A stretch of DNA of 64,000 nt from contig JAOALC010000002.1 in assembly GCA_025153775.1 (NCBI GenBank), positions 372,001 through 436,000 of the forward strand, in the 5' to 3' direction. Source of the DNA: SAR92 clade bacterium H231. Lineage in GTDB: Bacteria; Pseudomonadota; Gammaproteobacteria; Pseudomonadales; Porticoccaceae. Positions 10,713 through 50,611 of this stretch are shown here, piece after piece (positions within the stretch are counted from its first letter, which is position 1; every line of letters starts with the position of its first letter). The position numbers were made by a program, and so were the translations under genes. The notes beneath the pieces are model-generated. The model worked only from the letters and a program-made list of their open reading frames with translations. It did no database searches and was not told where the DNA came from.

Positions 10713-10808
10713 GGTGGAGGCCACAGGAACTTTAAATCGACTGTAAGCTAGTCAATAAATACTGGTTTAGTAATTTAAAACATGCGCTTTTGCTATAGCT
10801 TTTGTTAC
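10713..10808. repeat. Degenerate ssrA-type attachment-site repeat (oldest-looking copy)
   Basis: This 96-bp stretch begins GGTGGAGGCC and aligns along its whole length with the elements at 15441-15535 and 35343-35437, including the GACTGTAAGC segment, the TTTAGTAATTTAAAA segment and the final CTTTTGTTAC. The upstream GAGGTTTTAT also matches the ssrA terminator that precedes the better-preserved copies. Many substitutions are present, so it appears to be the most decayed member. Confidence 0.65.
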
Positions 10809-10828
10809 CGCGAATTACTGCGAAATCA

Positions 10829-11737
10829 TCATGGCCTACTGATAAGCTCGCTCTCTGCTCTTAGGCTTAGTGAAAAGGCATTGGTGGTGGCTGGGTTTTG
10901 CGACTGATGATAATGTTTTCGCGCATACCAAATTTTAAGATAGCGATAAAACGGCACGGTTGGATAAAGATGGTGCACGAGATGATAATTTTGAAAGAGC
11001 AGCACCGGCGTCAGCAACCACTCCATACCCACGCGATTTGATGTGCACTGGAAAGGCTGATCTTTTGCCTGCGCTTGGTGTGGGTAGTGAGGCAAAAAAT
11101 CAAATGTGATGGCCAAGAATATCGCCGTGATACGCCCCGGAATAAGGAATAGCAACAGGTAGTAATTCAGCCAGCCGTTGGCACTGATAACTGTCAATAC
11201 AACCGCCGCAAAAAGCAGTGCTAACAGCATTTCTCTGCGTTCACTTTTTGGCCTTTTCATAAACACCGAGGGATTTAAATAGCGGTAGAGATAGTTGATA
11301 TCCAGAGTCGTCCATTTCAATGGTAGAAGCCAACCTGGGCCGCTGCCAACGTATAGGTCGGGATCTTTAGTTTTATCATTCGTGAACCTGTGATGCTGCA
11401 TATGGATGTAACGGAACGCGCGAAAAAATGGTACAGGTGATTGCAACACCGTAGCCAATCGACCCACCCAATCATTCAGTGTGCGATTAGCGCTCACTGA
11501 GCCATGGGACGCTTCATGAGCCGGCGTGAAGGACATATACGCGGCAATGGTATTAAACAGGATGGCCCAAGATAGCGGCAATGCCCCCTCAATATGGGCG
11601 ATGGTTGCTAGACTAAAAATTACAAAGGAGACCACAAGAAGGATAATTGTAGGCCAAGCCACTGCAGGCTTTTTCATCAGGGTTTTAAAAAGTACTAGAT
11701 CATCAGCTTGATCAGCAATGGCGGATTGTGCATTCAT
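10829..11737 (-). CDS. Membrane fatty-acid desaturase/hydroxylase
   Basis: A 302-residue integral-membrane di-iron enzyme. The histidine clusters expected for the fatty-acid desaturase superfamily are HEASH at 74-78, HMQHH at 112-116 and HLVHH at 252-256, with a further HYPH at 217-220. Hydrophobic stretches lie at about 28-48, 55-72, 170-187 and 190-210. It would use O2 and electrons from a ferredoxin or similar donor to desaturate or hydroxylate a lipid-like chain in the inner membrane. It is divergent from an AraC/OruR-type regulator about 190 bp away. The beta-carotene-hydroxylase branch and the alkane/acyl branch cannot be separated by eye. Confidence 0.85.
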   Translation of the reverse strand: MNAQSAIADQADDLVLFKTLMKKPAVAWPTIILLVVSFVIFSLATIAHIEGALPLSWAILFNTIAAYMSFTPAHEASHGSVSANRTLNDWVGRLATVLQSPVPFFRAFRYIHMQHHRFTNDKTKDPDLYVGSGPGWLLPLKWTTLDINYLYRYLNPSVFMKRPKSERREMLLALLFAAVVLTVISANGWLNYYLLLFLIPGRITAIFLAITFDFLPHYPHQAQAKDQPFQCTSNRVGMEWLLTPVLLFQNYHLVHHLYPTVPFYRYLKIWYARKHYHQSQNPATTNAFSLSLRAESELISRP

Positions 11738-11928
11738 TGTTAAGCTCAGGGCCTCTATGTTGCAGCAAATTGACCGTTATCTTTCAACATATCATCTTGA
11801 TTTGGCAGAACAAACCATGACACTAGGGGGACAAATAGTGACAATATAGGCAGCGCAGAGTTACACTTGGAACGGCGATTCCGGTCGCCAGCAGAATAAT
11901 TGGGTTAGATTTTTTAGGTTGCCTGCAT

Positions 11929-12990
11929 ATGCGAAGCCACAAACATTCTCCCTCCAGCTATGCCCGTATCCTATTTCGCTATTTGGGACTCAGCGAAAAA
12001 ACCGGTCAAGGCTACTTTACGGGCACCAATGTGTCTTATAAAGAACTCATGACGCTAGACGGGACAATTCCTCGCGCCGATATGGTTACTATCTACAAAA
12101 ACGCACTGACTATCTCTGGCCGTGACGATTTGGGGCTGTTAGTTGGGACCCAGTTAAGTTTGCCAACCCATGGCCCCCTCGGTGTGGCCGCTTTTAGTGG
12201 GCCTGACCTTCGCACCGCCCTGACTTTGCTTGCTCAATACGGGCAAACTCGCGTGGAATTTTTTAATACTTCCGTCAGTGAGCATCCAGCAGGCCTGAAA
12301 ATTCATTTTGCTGAAACTTTCGATTTGAGTGATTTGCGCTTATTTCTCACCGAAACGGTATTTAGTGGACTATTTTCGGCTATAGAGTTTTTCGTAGGCG
12401 CCGGTCAGTTTAAAGGTCAAGTCTATTTCTCTTATCCACAGCCAAGCTATTGGCAAAAGTATCACAATGCGTTTGGTGACAATATACAGTTCAATCATTC
12501 GGTCACTGAAATCATCATTTCAAAGTCTCTATTATCGGTGCCTTCACCGACAGCTGACGCTGAGTTGCACAAGCAAGCAGTGGCGATCTGTGAACAGCAA
12601 CTTAAAGAAATAACAGCGGATAAGGCAGGAGGCCCTAGCCTGTCGATTGAACAGAGGGTATCAACACTACTATTTGAAAATCCAGGCAGGATATGGACCC
12701 TAAGTGAAGTGGCAGAAAAGCTGTGTATGAGCCCGCGCACAGTCATTAGAAAACTACAATCAGAGGGCACTCAATTCCAGATAATTCGCGACGAGCTAGC
12801 GAAAAAACAAGTAGCCAACTACTTAGCTGATGCCAGTTTATCTGTGGAAAGTATTGGCTATTTAATGGGTTTTAGTGATGTATCTAGCTTTAGACGCAGT
12901 TTCAAACGGTGGTTTGGACAAACGCCATCGCAGTATATCGCCAGAGTCAGGGGAGCCGATGCTCAACTTGGTGGCGGCAGCAGCCCTTAA
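11929..12990 (+). CDS. AraC-family regulator with arabinose-binding-type N-domain (OruR-like)
   Basis: A 353-residue regulator. The N-terminal 200 residues match the Arabinose_bd pattern found in OruR/ArgR-like AraC proteins (for example LGVAAFSGPDLRTALTLLAQYG). The C-terminal domain, about 250-345, has two helix-turn-helix motifs (SEVAEKLCMSPRTVIRKLQ and SIGYLMGFSDVSSFRRSFKRWFGQTPSQY). It is divergent from the desaturase gene and very probably controls it. A second regulator of the same architecture lies 1.1 kb downstream, next to the ferritin-like hydrolase gene. Confidence 0.9.
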   Translation: MRSHKHSPSSYARILFRYLGLSEKTGQGYFTGTNVSYKELMTLDGTIPRADMVTIYKNALTISGRDDLGLLVGTQLSLPTHGPLGVAAFSGPDLRTALTLLAQYGQTRVEFFNTSVSEHPAGLKIHFAETFDLSDLRLFLTETVFSGLFSAIEFFVGAGQFKGQVYFSYPQPSYWQKYHNAFGDNIQFNHSVTEIIISKSLLSVPSPTADAELHKQAVAICEQQLKEITADKAGGPSLSIEQRVSTLLFENPGRIWTLSEVAEKLCMSPRTVIRKLQSEGTQFQIIRDELAKKQVANYLADASLSVESIGYLMGFSDVSSFRRSFKRWFGQTPSQYIARVRGADAQLGGGSSP

Positions 12991-13039
12991 ACTATCAAGC
13001 ATTGATCAATATAGCTTTAATGCGTTTATAAAATCGTAA

Positions 13040-13103
13040 ATTTGACGCAGATCAGAGGCAGACTGCAACTGCAACTGCAACTGCAACTGCAACTGCGTCA
13101 AAT
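13040..13103. repeat. CTGCAA hexamer tract inside an 11-bp inverted repeat
   Basis: Arms ATTTGACGCAG (13040-13050) and CTGCGTCAAAT (13093-13103) are perfect complements. Between them is a tandem run of nearly six CTGCAA units (13063-13096). The structure sits in the 115-bp gap between two convergent genes, ending just before the hydrolase stop codon. It could act as a bidirectional transcription stop, although a clear T-run is missing. The tract length should vary by slippage. Confidence 0.8.
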
Positions 13104-13105
13104 CA

Positions 13106-13960
13106 TCAGCTGACAGCAACCGTCGGTTGCAATTTTTCTTGCCAGGTCTTTAAAAGAGATCTGTTGTCTATTTCCCAGGGATGAAAATCTTCCTGAAAAA
13201 AAGCTTTATAGGCAGGGACATGAGCTCTAATAAAGCCATCTTTTGAAAATAGAAATTTGGCGACACTCTTAAACGTTTTCCACTTCCAAAGCTGCTTATC
13301 ATGACGCAGCATTTTAACCGCCACCGACAACGTATCTTTGAACAGAAAAAACATTGCAAAGCGCATCACGCTTGTGCGCATTTTAAAACTACCACCAATT
13401 TGATTGTAGACATCAAATGCAACAGATTTGTGCTCAAGCTCTTCGAGGGAATGCCACTGCCAAAGCTCAGCCATCGCCGCAGGCATACTTTTTATTAAAC
13501 GCCCTTCGAGAATATTTTCACCAAAGGTGGCAGTGAAATGCTCTGATGATACAGTTGCAGCGAGGTTGACACGAGGAGTGATCTGAGTATCATTTTTTGC
13601 GGTCTCTAGTCGGTCCAGAAAAACCCTCTCTAGCGAAGCTAAATCATAACCTCTTTGTTGACACAGCAACTTATTATATTTTCGATGCTCGCGGCTATGT
13701 ATAGCCTCTTGCTGATAAAAGTCTGCAACGTCCTTGGCTAACTTTGCGTCGGTGATGCGATCTTCGTAAGCTCGAACAGAATCGATAAAATTGCGCTCGC
13801 CCGCTGGAAAACTGATGCTCATAGCATTAAAAAAAGCTGTTAAAAATGGGTCGTTATCTGCCCAATCAGTAGCCAGAATTTTTTCCAGCTCAAATGTTCT
13901 ATTTCTAACCTCGATAGAAACATCATTTGGCATCGTCGATTCTACGCTTATTGCAGTCAT
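13106..13960 (-). CDS. Predicted metal-dependent hydrolase, ferritin-like fold (PF10118 type)
   Basis: A 284-residue protein of the family annotated as predicted metal-dependent hydrolase. Helical segments carry likely metal ligands: FPAGE at 51-55, QEAIHSREH at 84-92 and HSLEELEHKS at 170-179, followed by AFDVY. The E/H pattern resembles a ferritin-like di-iron site, and no member has a well-established reaction. It is divergent from an AraC/OruR-type regulator at 14109, across a gap with two similar CAGTCA-containing segments that may be operator half-sites. Together with the neighbouring desaturase it suggests a lipid-related redox pair, which is an inference from co-location only. Confidence 0.78.
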   Translation of the reverse strand: MTAISVESTMPNDVSIEVRNRTFELEKILATDWADNDPFLTAFFNAMSISFPAGERNFIDSVRAYEDRITDAKLAKDVADFYQQEAIHSREHRKYNKLLCQQRGYDLASLERVFLDRLETAKNDTQITPRVNLAATVSSEHFTATFGENILEGRLIKSMPAAMAELWQWHSLEELEHKSVAFDVYNQIGGSFKMRTSVMRFAMFFLFKDTLSVAVKMLRHDKQLWKWKTFKSVAKFLFSKDGFIRAHVPAYKAFFQEDFHPWEIDNRSLLKTWQEKLQPTVAVS

Positions 13961-14108
13961 AGCTCTCTCCTTGGTTACATTTCGCTCAGAATAACAGCTG
14001 AGCCTGAAAAATGGGGGATGTTTTCAGTCACAATAGGGGATATATTCAGTCAACTGTGATAAGTTCTCAGTCTCTTAAGACCAATTAACGCTGGTAACAT
14101 AGGCCAAT

Positions 14109-15131
14109 ATGGTGATCAATCAACCGATACATAATCATATAGTCGAAAATCTGCTTACGATCTTGGCAGAGCAAGGCATCTCGTCACAACAACTTTTTGA
14201 GCGACCCGAGCTCGGTACATTTGAAGATCGAGAAACGCAAACCATTGAGCCAAATAAAATCCCGAGCCTGCTTCAGGCTGCATTCGCTTTAACCAATGAT
14301 CCCACATTGATGATGGGTCTCGGACAAAAAATCGATATATCCAATCTGGGCACCTTTGGTTTTGCGCTCATGAGTTGCGCCACTCTGCAGGAAGCACTTA
14401 AACTTTTACTCCGCTACCAATCCATTACAAGCCCGGGGTTATCGTTTCGATCCTTGGAGTCAGATAAGGATATTATTCTGCGTACCTCTATTGAGGTCGG
14501 TACGCCACTGCAGAAAAGACTTATTACTGAATTGGCATTCTCGCAAATAATACGGATTGCCCAAATTCTTGCCAACCCTGTGACTAATCAGAGTGAACTT
14601 CGCTTCAAGCATGATGATGCGGGCATCCTGCAAGCCTATAAGGCTGTGCTTAGCGTGCCCATTAAGTTCAACCAAAATCATAGTGAATTTTTAATATCTA
14701 AAAATATTATTGAATGCAAGATCACTTCTTCTAACCCAGTGGCACACGTAATTTTCCAACAGCAGTGTGAAGATTTGTTGCGCGGGCTAAACAGGATAGA
14801 GAATTTCTCTGCTGCCATAAGGCGAATGTTGATTCAGGCTGGTGGCGAATTTCCCAATATTCATCATATTGCTAAAACACTGCATATGAGCGAGAGCACA
14901 GTGCGACGACGCCTTAGCAACGAAGGCACTAATTTCCGCGTGATCTGCGATGAGGTAAGGAATGTCTTGGCACGTCAATACCTTGCAGCGTCTGAACTCA
15001 CCATTGCCGAGATCGCCTCATTATTGGACTACAGCGAACCTGTGAGCTTTCGTCGCGCCTTTGTGCGCTGGAATGAAATGACACCGATTGAGTATCGGCA
15101 TCATCACAGAGTCCCTGTACAGAATAGCTAA
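14109..15131 (+). CDS. AraC-family regulator (second OruR-like copy)
   Basis: A 340-residue regulator with the same layout as the one at 11929: an arabinose-binding-type N-domain (LGTFGFALMSCATLQEALKL at about 77-96) and a C-terminal pair of helix-turn-helix motifs (IAKTLHMSESTVRRRLSNEG and IASLLDYSEPVSFRRAFVRW). It is divergent from the ferritin-like hydrolase, which is its likely target. The two regulators are clearly different in sequence, so this is two regulator-target pairs and not a recent duplication. Confidence 0.9.
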   Translation: MVINQPIHNHIVENLLTILAEQGISSQQLFERPELGTFEDRETQTIEPNKIPSLLQAAFALTNDPTLMMGLGQKIDISNLGTFGFALMSCATLQEALKLLLRYQSITSPGLSFRSLESDKDIILRTSIEVGTPLQKRLITELAFSQIIRIAQILANPVTNQSELRFKHDDAGILQAYKAVLSVPIKFNQNHSEFLISKNIIECKITSSNPVAHVIFQQQCEDLLRGLNRIENFSAAIRRMLIQAGGEFPNIHHIAKTLHMSESTVRRRLSNEGTNFRVICDEVRNVLARQYLAASELTIAEIASLLDYSEPVSFRRAFVRWNEMTPIEYRHHHRVPVQNS

Positions 15132-15218
15132 ACTGGCTTTGCACACGCGCTCCATGAACGACCAAAGCCCAATTGTTGCGGTTAGATACAGAGCAGTCCT
15201 TAAACCACGTAGCCGAGA

Positions 15219-15386
15219 CTAGTCCCGGCTGTAGTAAATATTTCTCAGGTAAATCTGTTTATTTTCAGCACGATTCGGACTGAGTAATGACAACATGCCA
15301 GTCACATCTTTAAGGTCGGTACCCGCATTCAATTGCTCTATCGAGAGCTTAATGAATCTTTCTACGCCTATAAAACCCGATAAAAC
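15219..15386 (-). pseudogene. Short coding-like remnant next to an attachment repeat
   Basis: An open minus-strand frame of about 55 codons ends with TAG at 15219-15221 and encodes a protein-like sequence ending NKQIYLRNIYYSRD. It has no clear start, because a stop lies at 15387-15389. I do not recognise the family. Its position immediately left of an ssrA-type repeat suggests that it is the tail of a gene truncated when the module was inserted or trimmed. Confidence 0.3.
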
Positions 15387-15440
15387 CTATTTAAATCAAA
15401 GCTTTATGGTACTTTAAAGCCCCTTTCGGGGCCATTGTTT

Positions 15441-15535
15441 GGTGGAGGCGGCGGGAATTGCACACAGACAGTAACCTATTGATTAATATAGGTTTAATGA
15501 GTTTCAAAATCCGCTTTTGTTACATCCTTTGTTAC
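15441..15535. repeat. ssrA 3'-end attachment repeat with 95-bp arm
   Basis: The first 20 bases (GGTGGAGGCGGCGGGAATTG) equal the 3' end of the tmRNA gene at 50221-50240. The following tail, up to two TTTGTTAC motifs, is shared with 35343-35437 at the same length with only about nine differences. A small hairpin, GCCCC-TTTC-GGGGC, lies just before it (15419-15432), and the preceding bases (TATGGTACTTTAAAGCCCC) also match those before 49871. I interpret this as an att site left by an element that integrated into ssrA. Confidence 0.85.
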
Positions 15536-15586
15536 ATTAAATAACCCATTATTTGTCAGCCAGATAGTAAGCCAAACTGTATGTCA

Positions 15587-15910
15587 TCAGCGCTGCTTTG
15601 CGAAAAATATGTTTGTCCAAACATGGCGTATGAAATCAATGGCGATCAAGCAAAAGCCATTAACCATAAACACGTTGTAATAAAAGAAACTTGGGTTATA
15701 GCTTGGTTCAGACAAAAAGCCCCAAAACCCAGTGTTTGGCTCAAACACTTCACCAAAGGTACCGATTGCTATTCCCAATAGGCCGATCCATCCAATAAAC
15801 GATGGTGGCGCTTTTGGCACCTTTCCATGGTTTATGCATAGCAGGACACCACTGATAACTGCTAACGAGAGGGACCACTTAATTATCAACAAAAATATAT
15901 CTTCGGACAA
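15587..15910 (-). CDS. Small membrane protein of unknown function
   Basis: A 107-residue frame with three likely membrane helices (about residues 5-25, 37-55 and 75-95). I do not recognise the family. Its hydrophobic pattern and position directly after the attachment repeat make it a plausible gene, but an overlapping plus-strand frame exists and no strong ribosome-binding site is evident, so confidence is limited. Confidence 0.45.
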   Translation of the reverse strand: MSEDIFLLIIKWSLSLAVISGVLLCINHGKVPKAPPSFIGWIGLLGIAIGTFGEVFEPNTGFWGFLSEPSYNPSFFYYNVFMVNGFCLIAIDFIRHVWTNIFFAKQR

Positions 15911-16039
15911 AACTCAAATTACCTGCATTCACTGTTATTCACAACTTTATAGGACAGGCCGCACTACGCTAAGTTCGCCATATCGGACAGTAGGGACTGT
16001 AAAAGTCGTACAGCGAGCTTAGCTATCATCAATCTATCT

Positions 16040-16855
16040 CTAGTGGTGGATAGTAATGAGGTCCCAAGAGGCTTTAGCATTGAATCTCAGTGGTATAACG
16101 CTAGTTCCGATGCCTGAACTCACAAAGATCTGTCTCTGTTTGTCTTTGTATAGCCCGCAATGGGCTTCTCTGGGCGCCTGAGTAGGCACATACAAAGGCC
16201 CAAGCAAAGGTATAGATATTTGACCGCAGTGGGTATGGCCCGCTAATACAAGCCCTTCCACCTTGGGATTGAATGCTCCGGCGGGGTCATGCGTTAGAGT
16301 GATCTGAAGACGATCGGCGCAGGAGGTAGAAAAGTCTACATATTTGAAGTGACCAGTAAAGGCGTCACCAAAACCGCGTATACAGGTACCAATGGCTTCT
16401 AGCACAACCGTCTCATTCTCCAGCACCGTCACTCCAGCTTCAGATAGATACTCCGTCCAGGATTCAGCCCCAGACCAGTGATCATGATTTCCAAGAACAG
16501 CCACGACGGGTATGCCACCTGACGCTCGAAATATATTTGCAATAGCGGGCCCAATTGATGCTATGTCCTGGTTCGAAGCTCCATCGTTAATGTAGTCCCC
16601 ACCGAGTAATATGATGTCGAGGGTTTGTTCAATCACTCCTGACCATAGCTCCGTAAGCTCAGCGATGGCATCAGGTGAGTTTTTGACGTGGAGATCACTT
16701 AGAAGCGCAACTCGAAGCGTTTCGTGAGACTCACTATCCGTTAGAACGTAAAGAGATTGGGTGTTCATTCTAGGCTTAGTGCCGCTATTAACGTAGATGC
16801 CAACCACAACAAGCACAACTGCAAGAACAGCATTTCCTAATGCGACGTGTTTCAT
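16040..16855 (-). CDS. Membrane-anchored metallophosphoesterase (YkuE/YaeI-like)
   Basis: A 271-residue calcineurin-type phosphoesterase. The N-terminus carries one membrane or uncleaved signal helix (about 5-22), so the catalytic domain should face the periplasm. Metal-binding motifs are complete: SDLH at 53-56, GGDY at 85-88, GNHDHW at 122-127, THD at 188-190 and GHTHCGQ at 206-212. Relatives act on phospholipid-type or UDP-diacylglucosamine-type substrates, which cannot be resolved here. It is divergent from the secreted-protein gene at 17056. Confidence 0.88.
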   Translation of the reverse strand: MKHVALGNAVLAVVLVVVGIYVNSGTKPRMNTQSLYVLTDSESHETLRVALLSDLHVKNSPDAIAELTELWSGVIEQTLDIILLGGDYINDGASNQDIASIGPAIANIFRASGGIPVVAVLGNHDHWSGAESWTEYLSEAGVTVLENETVVLEAIGTCIRGFGDAFTGHFKYVDFSTSCADRLQITLTHDPAGAFNPKVEGLVLAGHTHCGQISIPLLGPLYVPTQAPREAHCGLYKDKQRQIFVSSGIGTSVIPLRFNAKASWDLITIHH

Positions 16856-17055
16856 AATGCTCCCCTAAGGCGCCTGAGTAATAACACGGCAAGTCAGAAT
16901 CAATTAAATAAAGAGACATTTACACAATGCTCTCTGCTGTGTATTAATGTCGATGTATTAATTATTGCATAGATGCTTTTCAGCACTATCGCGAAATTAA
17001 TTCGTAATTAACGAACAAATACATAAAAACTACTAAGCTCAAGGAGTATACAGTA

Positions 17056-17778
17056 ATGAAAAAAATAGCAATTCTATGCATGTTACTTCCGTTGTTTGCA
17101 GCAAACTCATATGCCGATGACCACATGTCGAGCGGACAGGGAAATGGTGCATTTTCAACATTATTTGTTGCGACTAATGATGTAGATAGGTATATAGCAT
17201 CGGTTACTGCTAATCCCGCACTTTTTAAAGCTATTGGAGCTCAAGCTGCTGGCTACTGCGAGACCGTTTCTGGCCAAGATTATTCTGGGCAGCTCATGAT
17301 GTGGAATGCCTTCCCAAGCGCTACAGCTGCTCTTATGGGGTCTGAAAAATACAACCCTGCCAAAGCCCCAAAGGTCATGGCTAGTCAGAGAGACTTTAAG
17401 TATGGCGCCACCTGGGCTCCACTAAAACCATTTCCTCGCCTAGACCCGGGCTATGAACGTGCTATGCGAATTAAAGTCTCTCCAGCCAATCTGCCTGCAT
17501 TAATCGCCAGTATTTCAAAGCTCGAAAAAGAGGTTCAGGATTCAGGTCACGATACGTTTATGAATGGATTATTTGCCGCCATAGGTGGCGGTAAGCAAGA
17601 GGCTGGCACTTTGTATTTGAAATCTGTTACAGCTGATGCAAAGACCCACGGCGCTGTTATAGACGACTATCTATCAGGAGCCGCGTGGGGCAATACATAT
17701 CAAGAAGCAATGGCTTTGGTCGACGAAGTAGTCAATGATCAGTTCGAAGTTTGCACTCAGTTCTATACTGCAGAGTAA
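17056..17778 (+). CDS. Secreted protein of unknown function
   Basis: A 240-residue protein with a clean Sec signal peptide (MKKIAILCMLLPLFAANSYA, cleavage near residue 20) and an AAGGAG ribosome-binding site. I do not recognise the family. The mature part shows two similar halves, each starting with a beta-strand-like segment (AFSTLFVATNDVDRYIASV and AMRIKVSPANLPALIASI), so a duplicated ferredoxin-like or dimeric alpha-beta-barrel fold is possible. Two cysteines near residues 68 and 234 could form a disulphide in the periplasm. It is flanked by the metallophosphoesterase and followed by a hairpin. Confidence 0.7.
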   Translation: MKKIAILCMLLPLFAANSYADDHMSSGQGNGAFSTLFVATNDVDRYIASVTANPALFKAIGAQAAGYCETVSGQDYSGQLMMWNAFPSATAALMGSEKYNPAKAPKVMASQRDFKYGATWAPLKPFPRLDPGYERAMRIKVSPANLPALIASISKLEKEVQDSGHDTFMNGLFAAIGGGKQEAGTLYLKSVTADAKTHGAVIDDYLSGAAWGNTYQEAMALVDEVVNDQFEVCTQFYTAE

Positions 17779-17802
17779 AAAGTCAAACTCGATAACAAAA
17801 AT

Positions 17803-17833
17803 ATAGTCCCGGCGATCTAAGCGCCGGGACTAT
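17803..17833. terminator. Perfect 12-bp hairpin, possible terminator
   Basis: ATAGTCCCGGCG and CGCCGGGACTAT pair perfectly over a 7-base loop, 24 bases after the secreted-protein stop. The T-run is weak on the plus strand but present on the minus strand (TATATTTTTG), so it may stop transcripts from either side. Confidence 0.65.
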
Positions 17834-17867
17834 CATTTACTACATAACCAATTAAATAATGAGAAAG

Positions 17868-17912
17868 TGGATTTATACAGTTTAAATATCCGTTTTTGTT
17901 ACATCAGATTAC
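17868..17912. repeat. Partial, degenerate attachment-arm remnant
   Basis: GTGGATTTATACAGTTTAAA followed by TATCCGTTTTTGTTACATC matches the second half of the 95-bp arm seen at 15441 and 35343, ending in a decayed second GATTAC. The GGTGGAGGCGGCGGG core is missing. It marks a probable further module boundary between the phosphoesterase pair and the D-amino-acid/peptide genes. Confidence 0.5.
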
Positions 17913-18069
17913 CTACACGGCATAAACAATAATATCTCGGAAAGACATTTAGCTAAAAAATAAAGAAGTGCTGACTCAAGAGCTACTTGATAGGAGCAAT
18001 CGATCAACTCAAAACCATTAAAATAAATTATTGAATTGATCTCGCAGCATATCGTGTATCACACTTGCA

Positions 18070-18927: not shown

Positions 18928-18978
18928 GATATTACTCACTTACAAATGTTATTTTTGCCATAGTCTAGGTAATACGGG

Positions 18979-20061: not shown

Positions 20062-20184
20062 AGGCCACTCCTTTTTAAATATTTTTTATTTCGCTTTACA
20101 CTCTGCCATTGTTGTAACAAACAAAAATAGCTAGTCCTCCACTGCACTCAATGTGATTGTTTCTCAACTCGATTACGAGCAAAC

Positions 20185-39836: not shown

Positions 39837-39849
39837 GATAAAAAACATT

Positions 39850-42862: not shown

Positions 42863-42869
42863 CGAGCCA

Positions 42870-43997
42870 CTATTTTTTAGCGGCAAAATCATCTCTCAAT
42901 TGCTGCTCAGTCAGGCCATACTTACCCGCAATATTGACGAAAAATGGATCCCAGTGATTGGTTAACACATCGACCATCTGGGCATTTTCCTGCAAGAACT
43001 TATAGCCTGCCGATCCTGGCACGCGCACAGAGTGGCCAGGTCTTGGTGGACAGTCTTCAATGGCAGCCACATAGCTATCAGACCTGGCTTTCACTGCATC
43101 TATGGACCCAAATACCGCCGGATTAATACACAGGTAATAACTGCCCCCAACCGTGGCTGAGCTATTTTTATCATCGGAAATTACGTCATCTATGGTTGGC
43201 AGGTCGGTAGAGGGGATACCGATTGGGTTTATAATCGCAGTCATTGCCTCTGTCCACATATTCAATGCATAGGTACGAGGCGTTTCTATCTGACCTGCAG
43301 CGGAACAGTCCCACACTCTTCCGTAACCCTCAATAGGTTTAGCATAGGCTGTTACATCGTCACTAAGGTCGCCTGACTCCGGGTCAATTAGCCATTTCCC
43401 TTTTAAGGGCTTTTTATGGATCGCCGCTTCTGACACATCAGCATCGTAAAACTCCGCTAAGGCAACGCTAGCCCAGATTGGGCTTTTGTCGCCAGCTGGT
43501 ACAATCGCATCAAAGGGCGGGCATGAAAGTTTGTTGTGCAACCCCCCATAAGGCGCTGCTAGCGGCACCGTGTTATTGGATGAAAATGCCATCATGTCTT
43601 GCTCAAACGCTTTGTAAACATAGCGAGCAAAACTGCCAGCATCATTGTGGTTACCACCAAAAACAATGGCTATGCCCTGGGTGCGTGCTTTTTCTATGGC
43701 CAGATCGGCCATCATATTTAAACACCAGTAACCGGAGGATTTGTTACCATCCACAGTCGCCCAGGTAGGCCCTTCTGCAATAACCTGCGGCTCTGACTGG
43801 ATATCTAATAGGCCCATCTCGAGGGCTATATCTATCGCTTCATAGACGCCAAGGCCCTGATTGAGCTTGCCCTGCTTGTGGGCAAAAGCAATAGCGTCAG
43901 CAACGTAAACCGCATGGATTTCTGTGGCCCCTGCGGCCATCCACATTCGTTTGATAGCATATTCAAGGAAATAAATATTTTCGCTGCGGGTTTCCAT
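42870..43997 (-). CDS. Ldh2-type NAD(P) dehydrogenase (malate/ureidoglycolate dehydrogenase family)
   Basis: A 375-residue member of the malate/L-lactate dehydrogenase family, distinct from Rossmann-type dehydrogenases. The pattern is seen in GVYEAIDIALEMGLLD, the ATVDGNKSSGYW segment, and the central FARYVYKAFEQDMMAFSSNNTVPLAAPYGG with the cofactor-binding region. Family members oxidise malate, lactate, ureidoglycolate or imine acids such as piperideine-2-carboxylate. In this module, ureidoglycolate-like or cyclic imine chemistry is an attractive inference but cannot be shown. It lies two bases downstream of an MFS gene on the same strand. Confidence 0.87.
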   Translation of the reverse strand: METRSENIYFLEYAIKRMWMAAGATEIHAVYVADAIAFAHKQGKLNQGLGVYEAIDIALEMGLLDIQSEPQVIAEGPTWATVDGNKSSGYWCLNMMADLAIEKARTQGIAIVFGGNHNDAGSFARYVYKAFEQDMMAFSSNNTVPLAAPYGGLHNKLSCPPFDAIVPAGDKSPIWASVALAEFYDADVSEAAIHKKPLKGKWLIDPESGDLSDDVTAYAKPIEGYGRVWDCSAAGQIETPRTYALNMWTEAMTAIINPIGIPSTDLPTIDDVISDDKNSSATVGGSYYLCINPAVFGSIDAVKARSDSYVAAIEDCPPRPGHSVRVPGSAGYKFLQENAQMVDVLTNHWDPFFVNIAGKYGLTEQQLRDDFAAKK

Positions 43998-43999
43998 TA

Positions 44000-45142
44000 T
44001 TAACTCCCTCTGGTTGCTACCTGATCAAGTTTTAAAATAATACTGGTGCCAAGCACAAATAACCCAGCGCTGACCCAATAACTGCCAGAGAGACCAAAAG
44101 CCTCTTTGGCTGCGACAAATAGACCGGGGCCAATAAGTGCCCCCAGGGCGAGCGCAAAAGGAATCAACCCCGCCATTCGCTCTGACTGGTCATGTAATGT
44201 AATTATTGTGTAAAAATAGGCATTTCCAAAAAACCAACCAGCTGGCAGTAAAAGCATAACTACCGCATATTTAGATACGCTAAGATCCTGCAACAGCAGT
44301 AAAGGTAATGTGACTAATGCCAGAGACACCAGTAGCGGCTTGACGCGACCAAATCGCACCCCAAGCCAGGCGGCGACAAAGGGACCAGCAGCGGAGCTTA
44401 TCAAGCCAAGGCTAATCAGCTGTGCTGTAACCTCAGTCTCCATTGAGCCATCGCTGGCAATACGCTCAAAAAATGCCCAGAGCCCAGCAAATCCAGCGAA
44501 ATATAGCATCAGTGCAACCAGCCCTAGGGCTACCGCACCAGAGCCTTTGATCTCAATTTTCTGATAACCTGTGGAACCGCTAGCGGGCACAAAAGGAACC
44601 AGCAGCATGCACAACAAGACTACTGTCAGCATGCTTGAGAAGAGGCTAAAGAAATTAACAAGATCAACAAAATAAAAGGATAGTGCTATCAGCAAAATAG
44701 CTGGAACTAGCTGTTCCGGTATCAGCTTAATGGCAAATCCGCGATCCTTATCTTGCCGGTCAGAGACAATAATATATCCAAGCGCATGCACCACGGCGGC
44801 CCCAACTCCACAAACCGAAAGCCCCAACAGCGTGACTAGGTAGGACTTGAAAAAGAGAATCGCACCAATTGATAGGGCCATTGTGCACATGCTAACGGCT
44901 GCCAGGATTCGCCAGCTAAAGTCTCTTACCCAAAACGCAGATGACAGCGTAATAACCGCATAGCTGCCAAAATAAGCGGATGCCAGTAGGCCCGCCTGAC
45001 TATCATTCAAAGCGAAATGGGTTGCCGTGACGCCCAAAACCATGGGCAGCAGAGCGAACACCAACACGCCAACCACGCCACAGGCACATGCCGCTACCAA
45101 AACTGATCGATCATTAATTGACTGTGAAATAATTCTCTCCAT
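44000..45142 (-). CDS. MFS transporter (module V, second)
   Basis: A carrier of 380 residues from the ATG at 45142; an in-frame TTG at 45160 is less likely. It has about twelve helices, and its first-helix region (LLPMVLGVTATHFALNDSQAGLLASAYFGSY) places it in the same subfamily as the proteins at 32998 and 40648. Having two related carriers in one module suggests two related substrates, or import plus export of an intermediate. It is divergent from the TonB receptor at 45307. Confidence 0.87.
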   Translation of the reverse strand: MERIISQSINDRSVLVAACACGVVGVLVFALLPMVLGVTATHFALNDSQAGLLASAYFGSYAVITLSSAFWVRDFSWRILAAVSMCTMALSIGAILFFKSYLVTLLGLSVCGVGAAVVHALGYIIVSDRQDKDRGFAIKLIPEQLVPAILLIALSFYFVDLVNFFSLFSSMLTVVLLCMLLVPFVPASGSTGYQKIEIKGSGAVALGLVALMLYFAGFAGLWAFFERIASDGSMETEVTAQLISLGLISSAAGPFVAAWLGVRFGRVKPLLVSLALVTLPLLLLQDLSVSKYAVVMLLLPAGWFFGNAYFYTIITLHDQSERMAGLIPFALALGALIGPGLFVAAKEAFGLSGSYWVSAGLFVLGTSIILKLDQVATRGS

Positions 45143-45306
45143 GAGCAAACAGGACACCAAAAATTGAATTGTAGTTTAGCGGCCTTTGAGCTTGGGTGCA
45201 TAATAGCCTAAGGATTAGCTTTCGCCCGTTACCCACTAAGGGTGATTATGTCTATCAACCAATTCCCATATCGTTGGACTGGATTTTTTAACTTATTGGG
45301 GGACTT

Positions 45307-47565
45307 ATGAAATTTAACAAAGGTATCAAACATTTAAGACCACAGGTCATGGTAGCTGCCATTGCCGTGGCATTTTCCGGTCATGCTGCGTCTGCAGCAT
45401 TAGAGGAAGTTATTGTTACAGCGCAGAAGAGAGCACAAAATCTCAATGACGTGAGTATCTCTGTAACCGCCGCTACTGCTCAAGATATTTCTGATATGCG
45501 CATTGAAACAGCCTTGGATATCGCTAAGCTTGCTCCCAATGTCGATATAAAATCTACCCTAGCCGGCTTGAATCCTGCAATCACCGTGCGCGGAGTTGGC
45601 CTTAACGACTTTAACGTCAATAATAATCCTTCCGTTGGCGTCTATGTTGACGAGGTGTTCCTCACCTCTCCCGCCATGCTTAGCTTTATGATGTTTGATG
45701 TCGAGCGAGTGGAAGTGCTCAAAGGCCCTCAGGGCACCTTGTATGGTCGCAATACTAACGGCGGTGCAATCAATATCGTATCCGTGAAGCCAACTAGCGA
45801 AACCGAGGGTTATATTCGCTTGGGAGCAGGTAATTTTGACAGTCGGGAAGTAGAGGCTGCAATCGGCGGCGCACTGTCGGACAATATGTCAGGTCGTCTT
45901 AGTGTGCGACTCGATGACCGAGATGGCCAGCATAAATGGAATCAAGGCAACCATACCTTTGGCGACATCGATAGCACAGCTGTAAGAGCCCAGCTCGCCT
46001 ATGACAATGGTGAAGACTTCAATGCTAATCTGTCGGTGAGTATTGGAGATCAGACTGGCACAACCATTCCCGGCACATCGTTTGGCACATTGAATGCGGA
46101 TTTTGGTACCTGCTCAGGCAGCCAGATTTTGGCACAGCAATGCACCGACTATGATGGCTTCACAAGAACCAGCAGTGATCCTTACAACCACGATATAGAT
46201 GCTGCGTCTGTAGCTCTTTCAAAGATGCTTGATATAGAGAGTTCAGCAGCAGTGCTGACAGCCAACTGGGACTTAGGCGATATGGCCCTAACTTCTATTA
46301 CCGGCGTTACTGATATGGAGCGTGTTTGGGCGGAGATCAGCGTCGACCACACGCCAACGATCACTCCCTATGGCACGATTGAAAAAGACGAAGATATTTC
46401 GCAAGTGAGCCAGGAGCTGCGGTTGTCTGGCGGCAACGACTCCCTTACCTGGATGCTGGGCGCTTTTTACTCTAGCGATGAAGTCGAAACAGATAACTAT
46501 ATAGAGTTAACTGAAGTCTCAGCAATCAATGACCCTGTGTTTGGCCTTGGCGGCCTTGATTTAGCCTGGGGCTATTTGCAAGAGACTGAGTCAATGGCAG
46601 TTTATGGCAATACCGAGCTTGTCCTTAATGACAAGCTGACCTTAGTAGCTGGCTTGCGCTACTCCGACGAAACCCGAGAGTTCAGTAACGCGGGGACCTA
46701 TCTTGCCTTTGATGGTGCTCTGTTAGACGCAGATGCCACCTTCTTTGGCGAGGACTTCGATGGTGCGCTGACTCCTTTTACCTCACAGGATGATGAAATC
46801 AGCGAAGATCGAGTCTCCGGAAAGCTTGGATTAGATTACCGTGCCAATGAGGACTTGCTTATTTATGGCTCAGTGAGTACAGGCTTTAAAAGCGGCGGAT
46901 ACTTTGGTGACTTCACATTTGATAGCTCAGAGCTCGCGCCTTTCGGCATAGAGGAAGTGACAGCCATTGAAGCCGGTTTCAAAGCGACCATGGCTGATGG
47001 CAGTGCACAGTTAAATGGTGCAATCTTTAACTATGATTACGAAGGTATTCAAACAGTTATAGCCACAGATGCGGGTACCTTCCCACTGACCAATGCTGAG
47101 GACGCCACCATTATGGGTGCGGAACTCGATTTAACCTGGGCACCTACTGAATCATTGGATATGCGCCTTGCAATTGGCTTACTTGATCACGAGCTAGAAG
47201 ATGCTCGGTTGGGCTCAGCTATGCCAAATGCTGCAGATGTGCAGGCTACCGGTCTGGTTCGTTATCGTTTTATGGCTAGTGAAACCCTGCAAATAGAGTT
47301 GCAGACTGACTTTAAATATACCGATGAAGCATTTCGCGAAGCCTACAACGACCCAATACTCAAAACTGATTCCTATACCCTATGGAACGGCAGAGTGGCA
47401 GTTTCTAACCCGAGCGAATCCTGGGTGCTGTCTGTCTGGGGCAATAACCTGACTGATGAAGTTTATTATCCTCAGGGGTTTGATCTTCAGGCGCTCAATG
47501 GTACCTACATGAAGTTCTTGGGAGCTCAGAGAACCGTTGGCGTGAACCTGCACTATAGTTTCTAA
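45307..47565 (+). CDS. TonB-dependent outer-membrane receptor (module V)
   Basis: A 752-residue receptor with a signal peptide (about 1-30, ending HAASA), a TonB box (LEEVIVTAQKRAQNLNDVSISV) very like that of the 7860 receptor, a plug with RVEVLKGPQGTLYG, and a barrel ending LHYSF with the terminal phenylalanine needed for assembly. An intrinsic terminator follows. It is the only outer-membrane component of module V and presumably imports the compound that the surrounding enzymes degrade. Confidence 0.94.
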   Translation: MKFNKGIKHLRPQVMVAAIAVAFSGHAASAALEEVIVTAQKRAQNLNDVSISVTAATAQDISDMRIETALDIAKLAPNVDIKSTLAGLNPAITVRGVGLNDFNVNNNPSVGVYVDEVFLTSPAMLSFMMFDVERVEVLKGPQGTLYGRNTNGGAINIVSVKPTSETEGYIRLGAGNFDSREVEAAIGGALSDNMSGRLSVRLDDRDGQHKWNQGNHTFGDIDSTAVRAQLAYDNGEDFNANLSVSIGDQTGTTIPGTSFGTLNADFGTCSGSQILAQQCTDYDGFTRTSSDPYNHDIDAASVALSKMLDIESSAAVLTANWDLGDMALTSITGVTDMERVWAEISVDHTPTITPYGTIEKDEDISQVSQELRLSGGNDSLTWMLGAFYSSDEVETDNYIELTEVSAINDPVFGLGGLDLAWGYLQETESMAVYGNTELVLNDKLTLVAGLRYSDETREFSNAGTYLAFDGALLDADATFFGEDFDGALTPFTSQDDEISEDRVSGKLGLDYRANEDLLIYGSVSTGFKSGGYFGDFTFDSSELAPFGIEEVTAIEAGFKATMADGSAQLNGAIFNYDYEGIQTVIATDAGTFPLTNAEDATIMGAELDLTWAPTESLDMRLAIGLLDHELEDARLGSAMPNAADVQATGLVRYRFMASETLQIELQTDFKYTDEAFREAYNDPILKTDSYTLWNGRVAVSNPSESWVLSVWGNNLTDEVYYPQGFDLQALNGTYMKFLGAQRTVGVNLHYSF

Positions 47566-47585
47566 TACAAATTGTGGCAATCCAG

Positions 47586-47612
47586 AAAACGGGGCGTTTG
47601 CCCCGTTTTTTT
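47586..47612 (+). terminator. Intrinsic terminator after the module V TonB receptor
   Basis: AAAACGGGGC and GCCCCGTTTT form a stem over a short loop, ending in seven T residues. It lies 20 bases after the receptor stop and before the SDR ribosome-binding site. Confidence 0.92.
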
Positions 47613-47636
47613 ATCTCAAATTCTAAGGTGACTACT

Positions 47637-48431
47637 ATGCCTGAAAACCAAAATTATTCTCTTGCCGGCAAGGTTGCAGTGGTGACAGGTGGTGCCTCTG
47701 GCATTGGTCTGGCGACTGTTCAACGCTTTTTACAAAGTGGAGCCAAGGTTGTCATAGCCGACTTAGCCAATAGCTCTGGGTTGAGTCAAGAGTTAGGCTG
47801 TGTCGGCGTTGAAGTTGATGTGAGAGATTTGCAGCAGATGCAAATGCTGATGAGTACGGCTGTAGATACCTATGGCGATATAGATATTCTGGTAAATAAT
47901 GCAGGAGTATTTGCAGATTATAAATCACTTATGGACTCCACCGTGCAAGACTTCCAACACTGCTTTGATATAAATCTAATGGGAATAGTCAATGGTATCC
48001 AAGCGGCTGTGCCTTTTATGAACAATCCGGCATCAATTATTAACACTGCTTCACTGGCAGGAAAAATGGGTGTTGTTGATCTCAGTTCATACACTGCATC
48101 AAAACATGCTGCCGTGGGTGTCACTCAATCAGCAGCTCTGGAATTAGCGGGTCGTGGAATACGCGTGAACTGCGTATGCCCATCAACAGTAAATACCCCG
48201 ATGGCTCACGCCGAAGGTGGTGACGAGCTGTTAAATTTTGAAAAAAACTGGAACCCTATGGGTCGCATCTGTCAGCCCGAAGAGGTTGCCGCTCTAATCC
48301 ATTTCTTAGCTGCTGACGACTGTGGATTTATTAACGGTCAGGCAATCAATCTATGCGGCGGAGCCACAGCAGGTCTCCATCAGCGCTCAATCGATGCGTT
48401 AACCAGCTTTAAAACAGGAAACCTCCAATGA
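47637..48431 (+). CDS. Short-chain dehydrogenase/reductase (module V, second)
   Basis: A 264-residue SDR from the ATG at 47637, chosen because of the AAGGTGA ribosome-binding site; an in-frame GTG at 47574 would run through the terminator. The cofactor motif is GGASGIG, NNAG follows, and the active site has the TASLAG serine with YTASK. FINGQAINLCGG is at the C-terminus. Its last four bases overlap the M20 hydrolase start, so the two are translationally coupled. Confidence 0.93.
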   Translation: MPENQNYSLAGKVAVVTGGASGIGLATVQRFLQSGAKVVIADLANSSGLSQELGCVGVEVDVRDLQQMQMLMSTAVDTYGDIDILVNNAGVFADYKSLMDSTVQDFQHCFDINLMGIVNGIQAAVPFMNNPASIINTASLAGKMGVVDLSSYTASKHAAVGVTQSAALELAGRGIRVNCVCPSTVNTPMAHAEGGDELLNFEKNWNPMGRICQPEEVAALIHFLAADDCGFINGQAINLCGGATAGLHQRSIDALTSFKTGNLQ

Positions 48432-49663
48432 GTACGCTAGTTAAAATCAATGGGCCAAGACTCTGGGATAGCCTGATGCAAATGGCCAAGATTGGGGCTA
48501 CAGCAAAAGGCGGCTGCAATCGACAGGCACTGACTGATTTGGATAAACAGGCCAGAGATCTATGGGTGCAATGGGCGGAAGAAGCCGGCTGTGATCTGCG
48601 GATTGATCAAATGGGTAATATCTTTGGCCGTAGACCTGGTCTTAATAACGCATTACCGGCGGTGGTAACGGGCTCCCATATTGATACCCAACCGACCGGC
48701 GGAAAATTTGATGGCGTCTATGGTGTGTTGGCCGGTTTGGAAGTTATCCGCTCATTAAATGATCATGATATCAGCACCAGTGCCCCAATAGAGGCGGTGA
48801 TATGGACTAACGAAGAAGGAGCTCGGTTCTCTCCAGCAATGGTCGGATCCGGTGTCTGGTGTGGCGAGTTTCCATTGGAATATGGACATAACCGCAGCGA
48901 TAAAACGGGGAAAACAATTAAACAAGAGCTAGAGCGGATTGATTATTTGGGTGATACGGCATGCACTCCCTACCCGATAAAAGGCTTTATCGAACTGCAT
49001 ATCGAGCAGGGTCCTATTCTTGAGAACGAAGATTTGCAGATTGGAATTTTGACCGGCGTGCAGGGTATGAATTGGTATGATCTAACGATTACCGGTCAGC
49101 CCGTTCATGCAGGGCCAACACCAATGGAAGGCCGCTGTGATCCATTTATGGCCTTGCACGGCATCATTAAAAATCTCTACGCAATGACGGCAGAATTTGC
49201 CCCTTGGTCTAGGGTTACCTTTGGCGATATCAGCGCTCAACCCGGTGCTCGCAATACTGTGCCAGAGCATCTGATTGTGGCAGTTGATCTACGCCATCCT
49301 GATAAATCTGTATTAGCAGAAATGGATCGTCGTTTTCGTGAGATCGTCGCTGAAAGCTGCGCGCTTGCAAACCTTGATCATAATATTGCAATTGAATGGC
49401 AATCACCGGCTGTGGCCTTTGATACCAGCTGTATTGATGCTGTACGCAAAGCAACTGTGGACCTAGGCTACAGCAATAAAGAAATGGTATCTGGCGCGGG
49501 CCATGATGCAGTCTATGTATCTCGCGTTGCCCCCACCTCAATGATTTTTATTCCCTGTGAAAAGGGTATTTCTCACAATGAAGCTGAGAATGCTAAGAAA
49601 GAGGATATTGAGGCGGGTAGTAATGTACTTATCAATGCATTAGTAAACCTGGCTAATGATTAG
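48428..49663 (+). CDS. M20-family N-carbamoyl-amino-acid hydrolase/allantoate-amidohydrolase-like enzyme
   Basis: A 411-residue dinuclear-metal amidohydrolase. Ligands and base are visible: H84 in GSHIDTQPTGGKFDG, D95, E129-E130 in TNEEGARF, H191 in LHIEQGP, and a late histidine in GISHNEAE. GAGHDAVYVSR is also typical. This branch removes carbamoyl groups from N-carbamoyl-amino acids, beta-ureidopropionate or allantoate, giving ammonia and CO2 or ureidoglycine. Co-occurrence with a ureohydrolase and an Ldh2 dehydrogenase is the main reason to propose guanidino/ureido catabolism in this module. Confidence 0.92.
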   Translation: MSTLVKINGPRLWDSLMQMAKIGATAKGGCNRQALTDLDKQARDLWVQWAEEAGCDLRIDQMGNIFGRRPGLNNALPAVVTGSHIDTQPTGGKFDGVYGVLAGLEVIRSLNDHDISTSAPIEAVIWTNEEGARFSPAMVGSGVWCGEFPLEYGHNRSDKTGKTIKQELERIDYLGDTACTPYPIKGFIELHIEQGPILENEDLQIGILTGVQGMNWYDLTITGQPVHAGPTPMEGRCDPFMALHGIIKNLYAMTAEFAPWSRVTFGDISAQPGARNTVPEHLIVAVDLRHPDKSVLAEMDRRFREIVAESCALANLDHNIAIEWQSPAVAFDTSCIDAVRKATVDLGYSNKEMVSGAGHDAVYVSRVAPTSMIFIPCEKGISHNEAENAKKEDIEAGSNVLINALVNLAND

Positions 49664-49707
49664 GCTAACTGTCGATAGCAGTTATTTCTTATATGCGACT
49701 TATTTGG

Positions 49708-49745
49708 GGTAACAAAACGGCAGGGAATCACCATGTTTTGTTACC
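49708..49745. repeat. Perfect 11-bp inverted repeat carrying the GTAACAAA motif
   Basis: GGTAACAAAAC (49708-49718) and GTTTTGTTACC (49735-49745) are perfect complements separated by 16 bases. The motif is the reverse complement of the TTTGTTAC found twice in the attachment arms at 15441 and 35343, so it may be a recombinase or excisionase binding site close to the right end of module V. The rest of the 49664-49870 gap holds no supported gene. Confidence 0.75.
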
Positions 49746-49870
49746 ACAAATGTTTCATTAAACCGTATTTTCTTCCTAAATCCTTGGTTTATTCCTGCTT
49801 TAACTAATACACAATAGCAGTAAATTCAATACTTTATGGTACTTTAAAGCCCCTTGCGGGGCTGCTATTT

Positions 49871-50045
49871 GGTGGAGGCGGCGGGAATTATTCGGGCTTT
49901 GCCCTCACCCCTTCGGGGCCGCCGTCGCTGCGCTCCCGCGTTGTCTCACCACTTCGTGGTTCGGCTGAACCCGCTGCGCGTCTTCATTCCAAAATAGAAC
50001 GGCCAATAAAAAACCCCAACCCTGTCGGGTTGAGGTTTTGTTATT
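49871..50045. repeat. 175-bp tandem unit 1: ssrA 3' end plus terminator
   Basis: Begins with the 19-nt ssrA 3' core and is the same length as, and nearly identical to, the next unit; I see only two single-base differences, near 49975 and 49997. It includes a copy of the tmRNA terminator and short CCCC-TTCG-GGGG and CCAC-TTCG-TGG hairpins. It is preceded by a small GCCCC-TTGC-GGGGC hairpin and the same upstream bases as the 15441 copy. Confidence 0.93.
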
Positions 50046-50220
50046 GGTGGAGGCGGCGGGAATTATTCGGGCTTTGCCCTCACCCCTTCGGGGCCGCCGT
50101 CGCTGCGCTCCCGCGTTGTCTCACCACTTCGTGGTTCGGCTGAACCCGCTACGCGTCTTCATTCCAAAATCGAACGGCCAATAAAAAACCCCAACCCTGT
50201 CGGGTTGAGGTTTTGTTATT
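50046..50220. repeat. 175-bp tandem unit 2: ssrA 3' end plus terminator
   Basis: Second unit of the tandem pair, running directly into the 3' end of the real tmRNA gene. Each unit is bounded by GGTGGAGGCGGCGGG, as expected if successive integration and excision events left one att copy each. Confidence 0.93.
50184..50213 (-). terminator. Terminator of the tmRNA gene
   Basis: On the minus strand CCTCAACCC-GACA-GGGTTGGGG is followed by six T residues, seven bases beyond the CCA end of the tmRNA. The same terminator is copied in the units at 35157, 49871 and 50046. Confidence 0.9.
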
Positions 50221-50611
50221 GGTGGAGGCGGCGGGAATTGAACCCGCGTCCGCCAGTCCGCTGCCTACGGCTCTACATGCTTAGTTCAGTCTTTAGTTTT
50301 AGGGCGCTGCAACCCGACTGACAGGGCGCACAACGCACGATTTCGGTAAGTTTTTAGTGAATCCGCCCCGAACAAGCTTCATCACGATCTTATGAGATAT
50401 GACGCCTGAGCGTTATCTCTCCCGAAGGATGTCAAACTCTGGACGCATAAGCACGGCTCCAGTCAGACGGCACTACACTGGGGTTTAAGCAGCTAGTGCG
50501 TAGTTGTCGTCGTTGGCAACTAATAGTTTGCGACTTTGGATTAACGAGATTGGTCACCATCTCGGCATGCACCGGAGGTTTTGTAACCGTCGTCGAATCC
50601 AAAACGCCCCC
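50220..50611 (-). ncRNA. ssrA: tmRNA (transfer-messenger RNA)
   Basis: This 392-nt gene rescues stalled ribosomes by acting as both tRNA and mRNA. The minus-strand 5' end GGGGGCG pairs with CGCCTCC before the encoded ACCA 3' end, giving a seven-pair acceptor stem. The 3' T-arm contains GGGTTCAATTCCC. The tag reading frame at 50485-50517 encodes ANDDNYALAA and ends in TAA, the form common in Pseudomonas-like and marine gammaproteobacteria. The last 19-20 nt are the core copied at every attachment repeat in the window, so ssrA is the integration target. Its sequence is intact, as each insertion restores the 3' end. Confidence 0.97.

Follow-up and report, generated by a model that had tools for sequence, protein, structure and literature searches.

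How do catabolic genes come to lie between copies of the tail of a stable-RNA gene? We asked this of a 64,000-nucleotide stretch of SAR92 clade bacterium H231 (assembly GCA_025153775.1, contig JAOALC010000002.1, positions 372,001 to 436,000; hereafter the window), in which the 3′ end of ssrA, the gene for transfer-messenger RNA (tmRNA), recurs along successive gene modules. A first-pass annotation had proposed that ssrA 3′ ends serve as attachment (att) sites at which modules integrated one after another. Our analysis supports such att sites and tandem modules: the locus is very probably a tandem array of integrative islands that arose by site-specific recombination at the ssrA 3′ end. The earlier interpretation is right in kind, and wrong on the order of events and on some borders.

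Copies of the ssrA tail are confined to one locus

The last 19 bases of ssrA, GGTGGAGGCGGCGGGAATT, which we call the core, occur on the plus strand at 15441, 35157, 35343 (one mismatch), 49871, 50046 and 50221, the last being the 3′ end of the tmRNA gene itself. These six are the window's matches with up to three mismatches, far above the 0.02 expected from shuffled sequence, and none of 100 shuffles reached six; the positions first reported for the copies hold. A degenerate copy reported at 10713 carries four mismatches (by eye), beyond the range of that search, and is borne out by its flank, which fits the profile of island left ends described below (E 7.8e-9). At 17868, where a partial copy had been proposed, there is no core; a weak match to a left arm does lie there, at 17821-17907.

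Throughout the H231 genome (2.93 Mb, 97.8% complete; G000 in our working numbering of genomes), a 17-mer of the core with at most one mismatch has six matches, all forward and all at the ssrA locus, with none for a reversed control; the repeats are thus not scattered through the genome unconnected to ssrA, as would speak against serial integration. The exact 17-mer is present in 64 of 112 genomes of the family, 16 of which (H231 included) hold at least two on one contig, in every case on a single strand, up to a maximum of seven across 108 kb in G037. Cores with at most two mismatches in ten long stretches number 32 forward and none reverse. Module borders marked by direct repeats of the ssrA tail, in one orientation and at one locus, are the arrangement known from arrays of ssrA-specific genomic islands. 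Elsewhere, a good left end at G035:C9:161093 (L098) lies in a stretch without tmRNA, ssrA being on a different contig, and is possibly a secondary site or a rearrangement.

Island ends and repeat units share the same core

A full left end consists of a core and an arm of about 85 bp with TTTTGTTACATCCTTTGTTAC. We built a profile of it from 20 copies in ten genomes, aligning cores with a TTGATTA-like box and leaving out the sister-genus stretches (G070, G074, G078 and G084). Three of the seven window cores, at 10713, 15441 and 35343, open such a conserved left end with TTTGTTAC boxes, whose density (11.4 per kb in 12 strong left ends versus 0.063 per kb overall) describes rather than tests the ends, the boxes belonging to the profile itself. 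The copies had all been read as module borders; this stands for those three, while the cores at 35157, 49871 and 50046 instead begin ssrA-tail repeat units, composed of core, spacer and ssrA-type terminator and 175 bp long (186 bp at 35157), which the first pass had not noticed.

Outside the core of one class of right end, termed R1, lies an immediately adjoining AGCCCCTTNCGGGGC hairpin, found in the window at 15441 and 49871. The latter bounds module C (Table 1) and aligns with the ends of integrase-bearing elements in relatives, the alignment being good only over the 40 bp adjoining the core. Nine R1 ends have folding energies of -11.4 to -15.5 kcal/mol, against -17.6 to -27.3 kcal/mol for native-type ends (with one exception at -11.4). 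We rejected a terminator hairpin as a feature of every island right end, several right ends folding no better than shuffles.

Module C keeps arm boxes at both ends and has no integrase, and so has the form of a cis-mobilizable element (CIME), in which left and right att sites (attL and attR) persist after loss of integration and transfer genes; module B2 does not, having no arm box at 35157. Because two complete repeat units lie between it and ssrA, module C, the window's clearest module, sits at an internal core, which it could have reached by insertion or by exchange. New elements had been supposed always to enter next to ssrA; the place of module C inside the repeat array contradicts this. 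Nor do the ends decay outward as had been described: from ssrA, the window's left ends score 105, 21, 106, 27 and 34 bits, and scores are ungraded in two of the four stretches having three or more left ends (those of H231 and G036).

A sample of 293 genomes from the order yielded matches to the 175-bp unit in 28 (H231 included), many of these matches being partial and spanning the spacer alone or the terminator alone; among 16 such loci checked, tmRNA was found at five, tRNA genes at eight and neither at three. Since the unit occurs near stable-RNA genes of other families, it is probably older than, and independent of, the islands. Its spacer also lies at tRNA-Arg genes of another family (L234, L235, L236, L237 and L239), and the unit-like stretch at L237 has the tail of tRNA-Arg at its end (by eye), so that tail repeats of this kind are not confined to ssrA among stable-RNA genes. 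The unit as RtT was a candidate that found no match in Rfam.

In the sister genus, G078, G074 and G084 (L108-L111) hold ssrA-tail stacks with a near-constant left flank, ..AATATTTCAACGAATT followed by the core, from which one of the two G084 copies deviates. Their right side is mostly different (GGAAACGTTTACA..), marking a second island family at ssrA.

The integrase is carried by relatives

As first reported, the window holds no recombinase: none appeared in a Pfam scan of 40 of its 44 open reading frames (ORFs) of at least 150 amino acids, shorter ones being left out, and tblastn with two integrases from relatives, IntA and IntB, returned no match, whether integrase or remnant. No relative of IntA exists in the H231 genome, which has two other Phage_integrase matches on other contigs; that family search showed no obvious XerC/XerD pair and may miss members, and the direct search with IntA is the better negative. 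The genome's sole long integrase-like ORF (446 amino acids; G000:C4:73014-73445, L011) is a distant relative of IntB (33% over 173 amino acids).

Relatives, by contrast with H231, do carry a dedicated integrase on at least some elements. IntA is a tyrosine integrase of 416 amino acids with arm-binding, central and catalytic domains (Arm-DNA-bind_3, Phage_int_M and Phage_integrase), 51% identical to IntA of Escherichia coli CP4-57; a CP4-57-type recombination module is thus found in relatives and not in the window, with the adjoining 62-amino-acid AlpA-family protein seen in G012 only.

Its position follows a pattern. We tabulated 71 cores, 11 of which carry an R1 end as defined by pattern; at ssrA, IntA stands 165 bp from the core in six of six, whereas R1 ends inside stacks have IntA nearby in none of five. 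Five of the six touch ssrA directly, and the other, in G037, was formerly at ssrA and is now separated from it by an element with IntB. For cores at contig starts (G018, G034, G060 and G017 position 1) the left flank is short or missing, and two R1-like ends outside the pattern (G037 16821 and G040 461), with no IntA near, are excluded from the five. Weaker relatives of IntA adjoin ssrA behind other end types in G026, G029, G030, G039 and G070.

An IntA-bearing stretch of 27.1 kb in G036 has 18 ORFs of at least 120 amino acids, of which we scanned IntA and nine others: a primase/VapE-like protein, a RES protein with its Xre-type antitoxin, a helicase-nuclease with a REase_MTES_1575 domain, a transposase, an AcrB-family pump, a TetR regulator, a methyltransferase and one protein without a convincing match. 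No conjugation gene was among these ten. In phage databases, six exact peptide patterns of IntA, which would find close relatives only, had no match in IMG/VR; phage records hold IntA relatives (428 records), all below 60% identity.

One element in G058, whose IntB-like integrase appears to be split, has at its far end a second tmRNA-like match, which is partial (G058:C5:474770-475029; 41 bits, below the cut-off) and indicates that this element duplicates a longer piece of ssrA.

Filled and near-empty sites in relatives

A conserved anchor gene block, which emerged once left flanks were extended (a common chromosomal left flank had been unclear in the first stretches), was located in six of ten long stretches. 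In G035 only 2.1 kb separate it from ssrA, with a single core and no complete repeat unit at that site; the corresponding distances are 27.4 kb in G012, 29.4 kb in G058, 55.3 kb in G059 and 114.7 kb in G037. The ssrA flank of G035 is thus the near-empty site for which the first pass had suggested looking. In H231, a single block gene was detected, at C2:332001-332841; it is truncated by the end of the retrieved sequence and some 89 kb distant from ssrA, and neither of the two block genes that come after it in other genomes was seen there. The start of the variable zone accordingly appears to lie some 39 kb outside the window, to its left, and the window's left 10.7 kb is probably not old chromosome flank, to judge from this one cut gene. 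Within this region, G000:C2:333007-343613 (L191) shares blocks with G057:C6 at 92-97% DNA identity; G057 has a left end with core between two of the shared blocks, and H231 has other sequence at that place.

G036 and G013, whose shared blocks are 92-96% identical in DNA, differ by the presence or absence of the 27.1-kb stretch with IntA next to ssrA; they differ also in how an 8.3-kb block and the gene beside it are ordered.

Different modules between the same repeats, another predicted sign of serial integration, were also found; module order is not conserved among the relatives compared. Searching relatives with the DNA of 15430-50046 (10690-15430 being left out), we found module C whole in another species, G040, at 97.9% identity over 14.4 kb, with a core spacing of 14,516 bp (14,528 bp in the window), other island ends on both sides and neighbours unlike the window's; the Dxs proteins of the two genomes are only 83% identical. 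A counterpart of part of module B1, 93.9% identical, adjoins an att site in G031. Among 72,556 plasmid records there was no near match to module C, and the exact left-end pattern had no match in IMG/VR.

Modules and cargo of the window

The modules and their borders are listed in Table 1. Module B2 encodes a class IV aminotransferase, acyl-CoA dehydrogenase, amidohydrolase, SNF symporter, aldehyde dehydrogenase, S9 peptidase, TonB receptor, TetR regulator, GMC oxidoreductase, MFS transporter and second TetR regulator. Module C encodes a cyclase-like protein, LuxR regulator, class III aminotransferase, PLP decarboxylase, SDR protein, MFS transporter, ureohydrolase (arginase family), Ldh2, a second MFS transporter, TonB receptor, second SDR protein and a hydantoinase/carbamoylase-type amidase. 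In NCBIfam scans of 20 proteins, this amidase scored above the curated cut-off for the hydantoinase/carbamoylase family; the remaining best matches shown were below their cut-offs, and those names are family-level only. The TetR genes of B2 form an inverted pair (30518-31120 and 34286-34888; 603 nucleotides at 75%) enclosing the GMC oxidoreductase and an MFS gene.

Table 1 Modules, island ends, repeat units and ssrA in the window
Feature	Position	Strand	Details
Module A1	10713..12970		Fatty acid desaturase, AraC regulator
Degenerate core and left arm	10713..10811	+	Profile 34.4 bits; ssrA-terminator-like remnant just before (by eye)
Module A2	12971..15440		Metal-dependent hydrolase, AraC regulator; left end weak (27 bits)
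Weak left end	12971		Profile 27 bits, E 1.3e-6
R1 right end of module on left side	15393..15440	+	Hairpin kept; no arm box within 220 bp
Module B1	15441..17820		Metallophosphoesterase, unknown protein
Left end, core and left arm	15441..15549	+	Profile 105.8 bits
Module B2	17821..35156		17 kb; left border weak
Degenerate left arm without core	17821..17907	+	Profile 20.6 bits, E 1.4e-4
ssrA-tail repeat unit	35157..35342	+	186 bp; separated from the other two by module C
Module C	35343..49870		14.5 kb; no integrase
Left end (attL), core and left arm with TTTTGTTACATCCTTTGTTAC	35343..35452	+	Profile 105.3 bits
R1 right end of module C	49690..49870	+	Inverted pair GGTAACAAAA / TTTTGTTACC, hairpin AGCCCCTTGCGGGGCT
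ssrA-tail repeat unit	49871..50045	+	175 bp; 99% identical to next unit; core is the right att site of module C
ssrA-tail repeat unit	50046..50220	+	175 bp; nearest to ssrA
ssrA	50220..50611	-	tmRNA, tag ANDDNYALAA; 3′ end 50220-50239 is the attachment core

Proposed site-specific integration and its alternatives

We propose that a CP4-57-type IntA, with AlpA, carried in relatives on the element adjoining ssrA, recombines core against core, and that it could use any core, whether ssrA's own or those of the 175-bp repeats; modules would then land at ssrA and in the repeat array alike. Elements would subsequently lose intA and persist as CIMEs, cargo with attL and attR, which may accumulate, decay or move when an integrase arrives again. 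No IntA is left in the H231 genome, and we therefore predict that its modules stay immobile unless a helper arrives. Excision, mobilisation in trans and passage of DNA from cell to cell are likewise parts of the proposed model.

Several observations weigh against this account. Excision and integration are inferred, neither having been observed. The six-of-six and none-of-five counts for IntA are phylogenetically non-independent, and two of the six genes (G014 and G017) are cut by contig ends. At the ends themselves, the left-end matches at 12971 and 17821 are weak and may be coincidental, and B2 terminates on its right side, at 35157, in an end that lacks an arm box and does not belong to the R1 class. 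The anchor block was not found in the fetched stretches of G013, G036, G057 and G070, and the 27.1-kb stretch of G036 contains a further weak left end (46 bits) and may be more than one element. As to the travel of modules by ssrA integration, module C does lie between such sites in G040; however, its place there in an ssrA stack is an inference, as the contig lacks ssrA, and its ends match those in the window less well (left arm about 89%, last 180 bp about 75%) than the 98% identical cargo. The B1 counterpart in G031 has an att site on one side only, the other side being off the contig. The genes of B2 were located in G022, G057 and G016, where the retrieved stretches contain no att end, leaving B2 unconfirmed as an att-flanked unit.

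The dissimilar ends of module C suggest that it may have been moved, or given new ends, by homologous recombination within the arms; exchange between homologous arms and repeats has to be taken seriously as a rival to, or partner of, site-specific recombination. In its full form this explanation has incoming DNA that bears neighbouring cassettes exchanged by way of the shared arms and 175-bp repeats, the cores being leftovers of old integrations. The repeats and left ends do supply 100-180 bp of homology, and neither H231 nor G040 (82% complete) has IntA; we nevertheless consider it fairly unlikely, given that the 27.1-kb IntA stretch is present or absent between close relatives, that IntA is found only at R1 ends touching, or once touching, ssrA, and that modules sit behind different neighbours. 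The restriction of IntA to the ssrA-proximal element in relatives with R1 ends would also suit strict serial integration next to ssrA, as first proposed, with older modules lying farther out; indeed, the weakest left end is the outermost in G037 and G057 (the G057 contig being without ssrA). Module C, two repeat units removed from ssrA, and the ungraded left-end scores of H231 and G036 make so strict an order improbable. That the ssrA tail was simply duplicated in tandem to give the repeats, with genes inserted between them by unrelated events, draws some support from the spread of 175-bp-like sequence through the order, with tRNA or tmRNA genes near 13 of the 16 loci checked, and would fit the cores at 35157, 49871 and 50046. 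It does not fit those with a conserved left end (10713, 15441 and 35343), leaves unexplained the R1 ends common to integrase-bearing elements, and is largely refuted by left and right ends conserved across species; we regard it as highly improbable.

Within site-specific integration at ssrA, a doubtful but attractive extension is that the 175-bp array acts as both landing pad and insulator. Spare cores with a strong ssrA terminator might let islands pile up without touching ssrA, and the array might cut modules off from ssrA transcription. The intA gene, which shares the orientation of ssrA, starts 165 bp from the core, and the hairpin that precedes it is a weaker one; read-through from ssrA driving intA only in the element that touches it would explain why IntA stands at all six R1 ends at ssrA and at none of the five deeper ones. 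Were this so, position in the stack would decide which element is mobile.

Relation to known systems

The element CP4-57 of E. coli targets ssrA and resembles the elements of SAR92 relatives in its IntA and in having an AlpA family protein; its intA lies about 0.2 kb from the element start, where the sequence reads like an ssrA tail. CP4-57 is, however, a single prophage-like element, whereas the SAR92 locus comprises stacks mostly without IntA. The rtT repeats of E. coli tyrT are likewise tandem units of similar length that carry the last 19 bases of a stable RNA gene; they stand at a tRNA gene and the SAR92 unit at ssrA, and we compared the sequences through Rfam only.

Among planktonic bacteria, Prochlorococcus is reported to carry tycheposons, cargo islands at tRNA genes. 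Additive islands with 20-bp tRNA-tail repeats are described for Methylophilaceae in the part of PMC10872708 drawn on here. Like the SAR92 islands, these plankton islands place cargo, with nutrient genes, behind an RNA gene with recurring 20-bp tail repeats; they target tRNA genes rather than ssrA, and the comparison here covers target, repeats and cargo. The SAR92 clade itself consists of abundant coastal bacteria, according to the portions of PMC10746254 used here, whose main text does not mention 'genomic island', 'integrase' or 'tmRNA'; in the open literature, of which our broader searches covered first-ranked papers only, we found no description of SAR92 ssrA islands.

In the accretion model, as outlined in the part of PMC5704250 that we cite, CIMEs lose their integration genes and keep attL and attR, and stacking follows from later integration in attR at the target gene. 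The SAR92 array agrees in having elements without integration genes that keep both sites, and differs in offering repeat-array cores as extra sites and, among the ten of 18 ORFs scanned in G036, in having no conjugation gene.

Closest are the ssrA-specific islands of Dehalococcoides, so that the SAR92 locus is not, as the first-pass annotation held, without a described counterpart. The sections of PMC3146451 consulted report 28 ssrA direct repeats, islands in tandem downstream of ssrA with strain-variable catabolic cargo, 15 islands without an integration module that are proposed to be cis-mobilizable, and different histories for integration module and cargo. Both loci thus share tandem islands with direct repeats at ssrA and islands lacking an integration module. 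The Dehalococcoides integrase in that account is a serine recombinase, DsiB (CcrB-like), with a T-loop insertion, while the integrase associated with the islands in SAR92 relatives is a tyrosine recombinase of CP4-57 type; SAR92 differs further in its arm boxes, its R1 ends, insertion inside the 175-bp array, phylum and cargo.

The ssrA locus looks to be an important route by which SAR92 bacteria gain and lose whole substrate-use modules: 2 to 115 kb of variable DNA lie at this one site in the six genomes measured. The named borders, named integrase and near-empty-site genome make the mobility of modules testable. New are the pattern in the position of IntA and the repeat array as a proposed source of additional landing sites; the accretion seen in Dehalococcoides has here arisen with a different recombinase.

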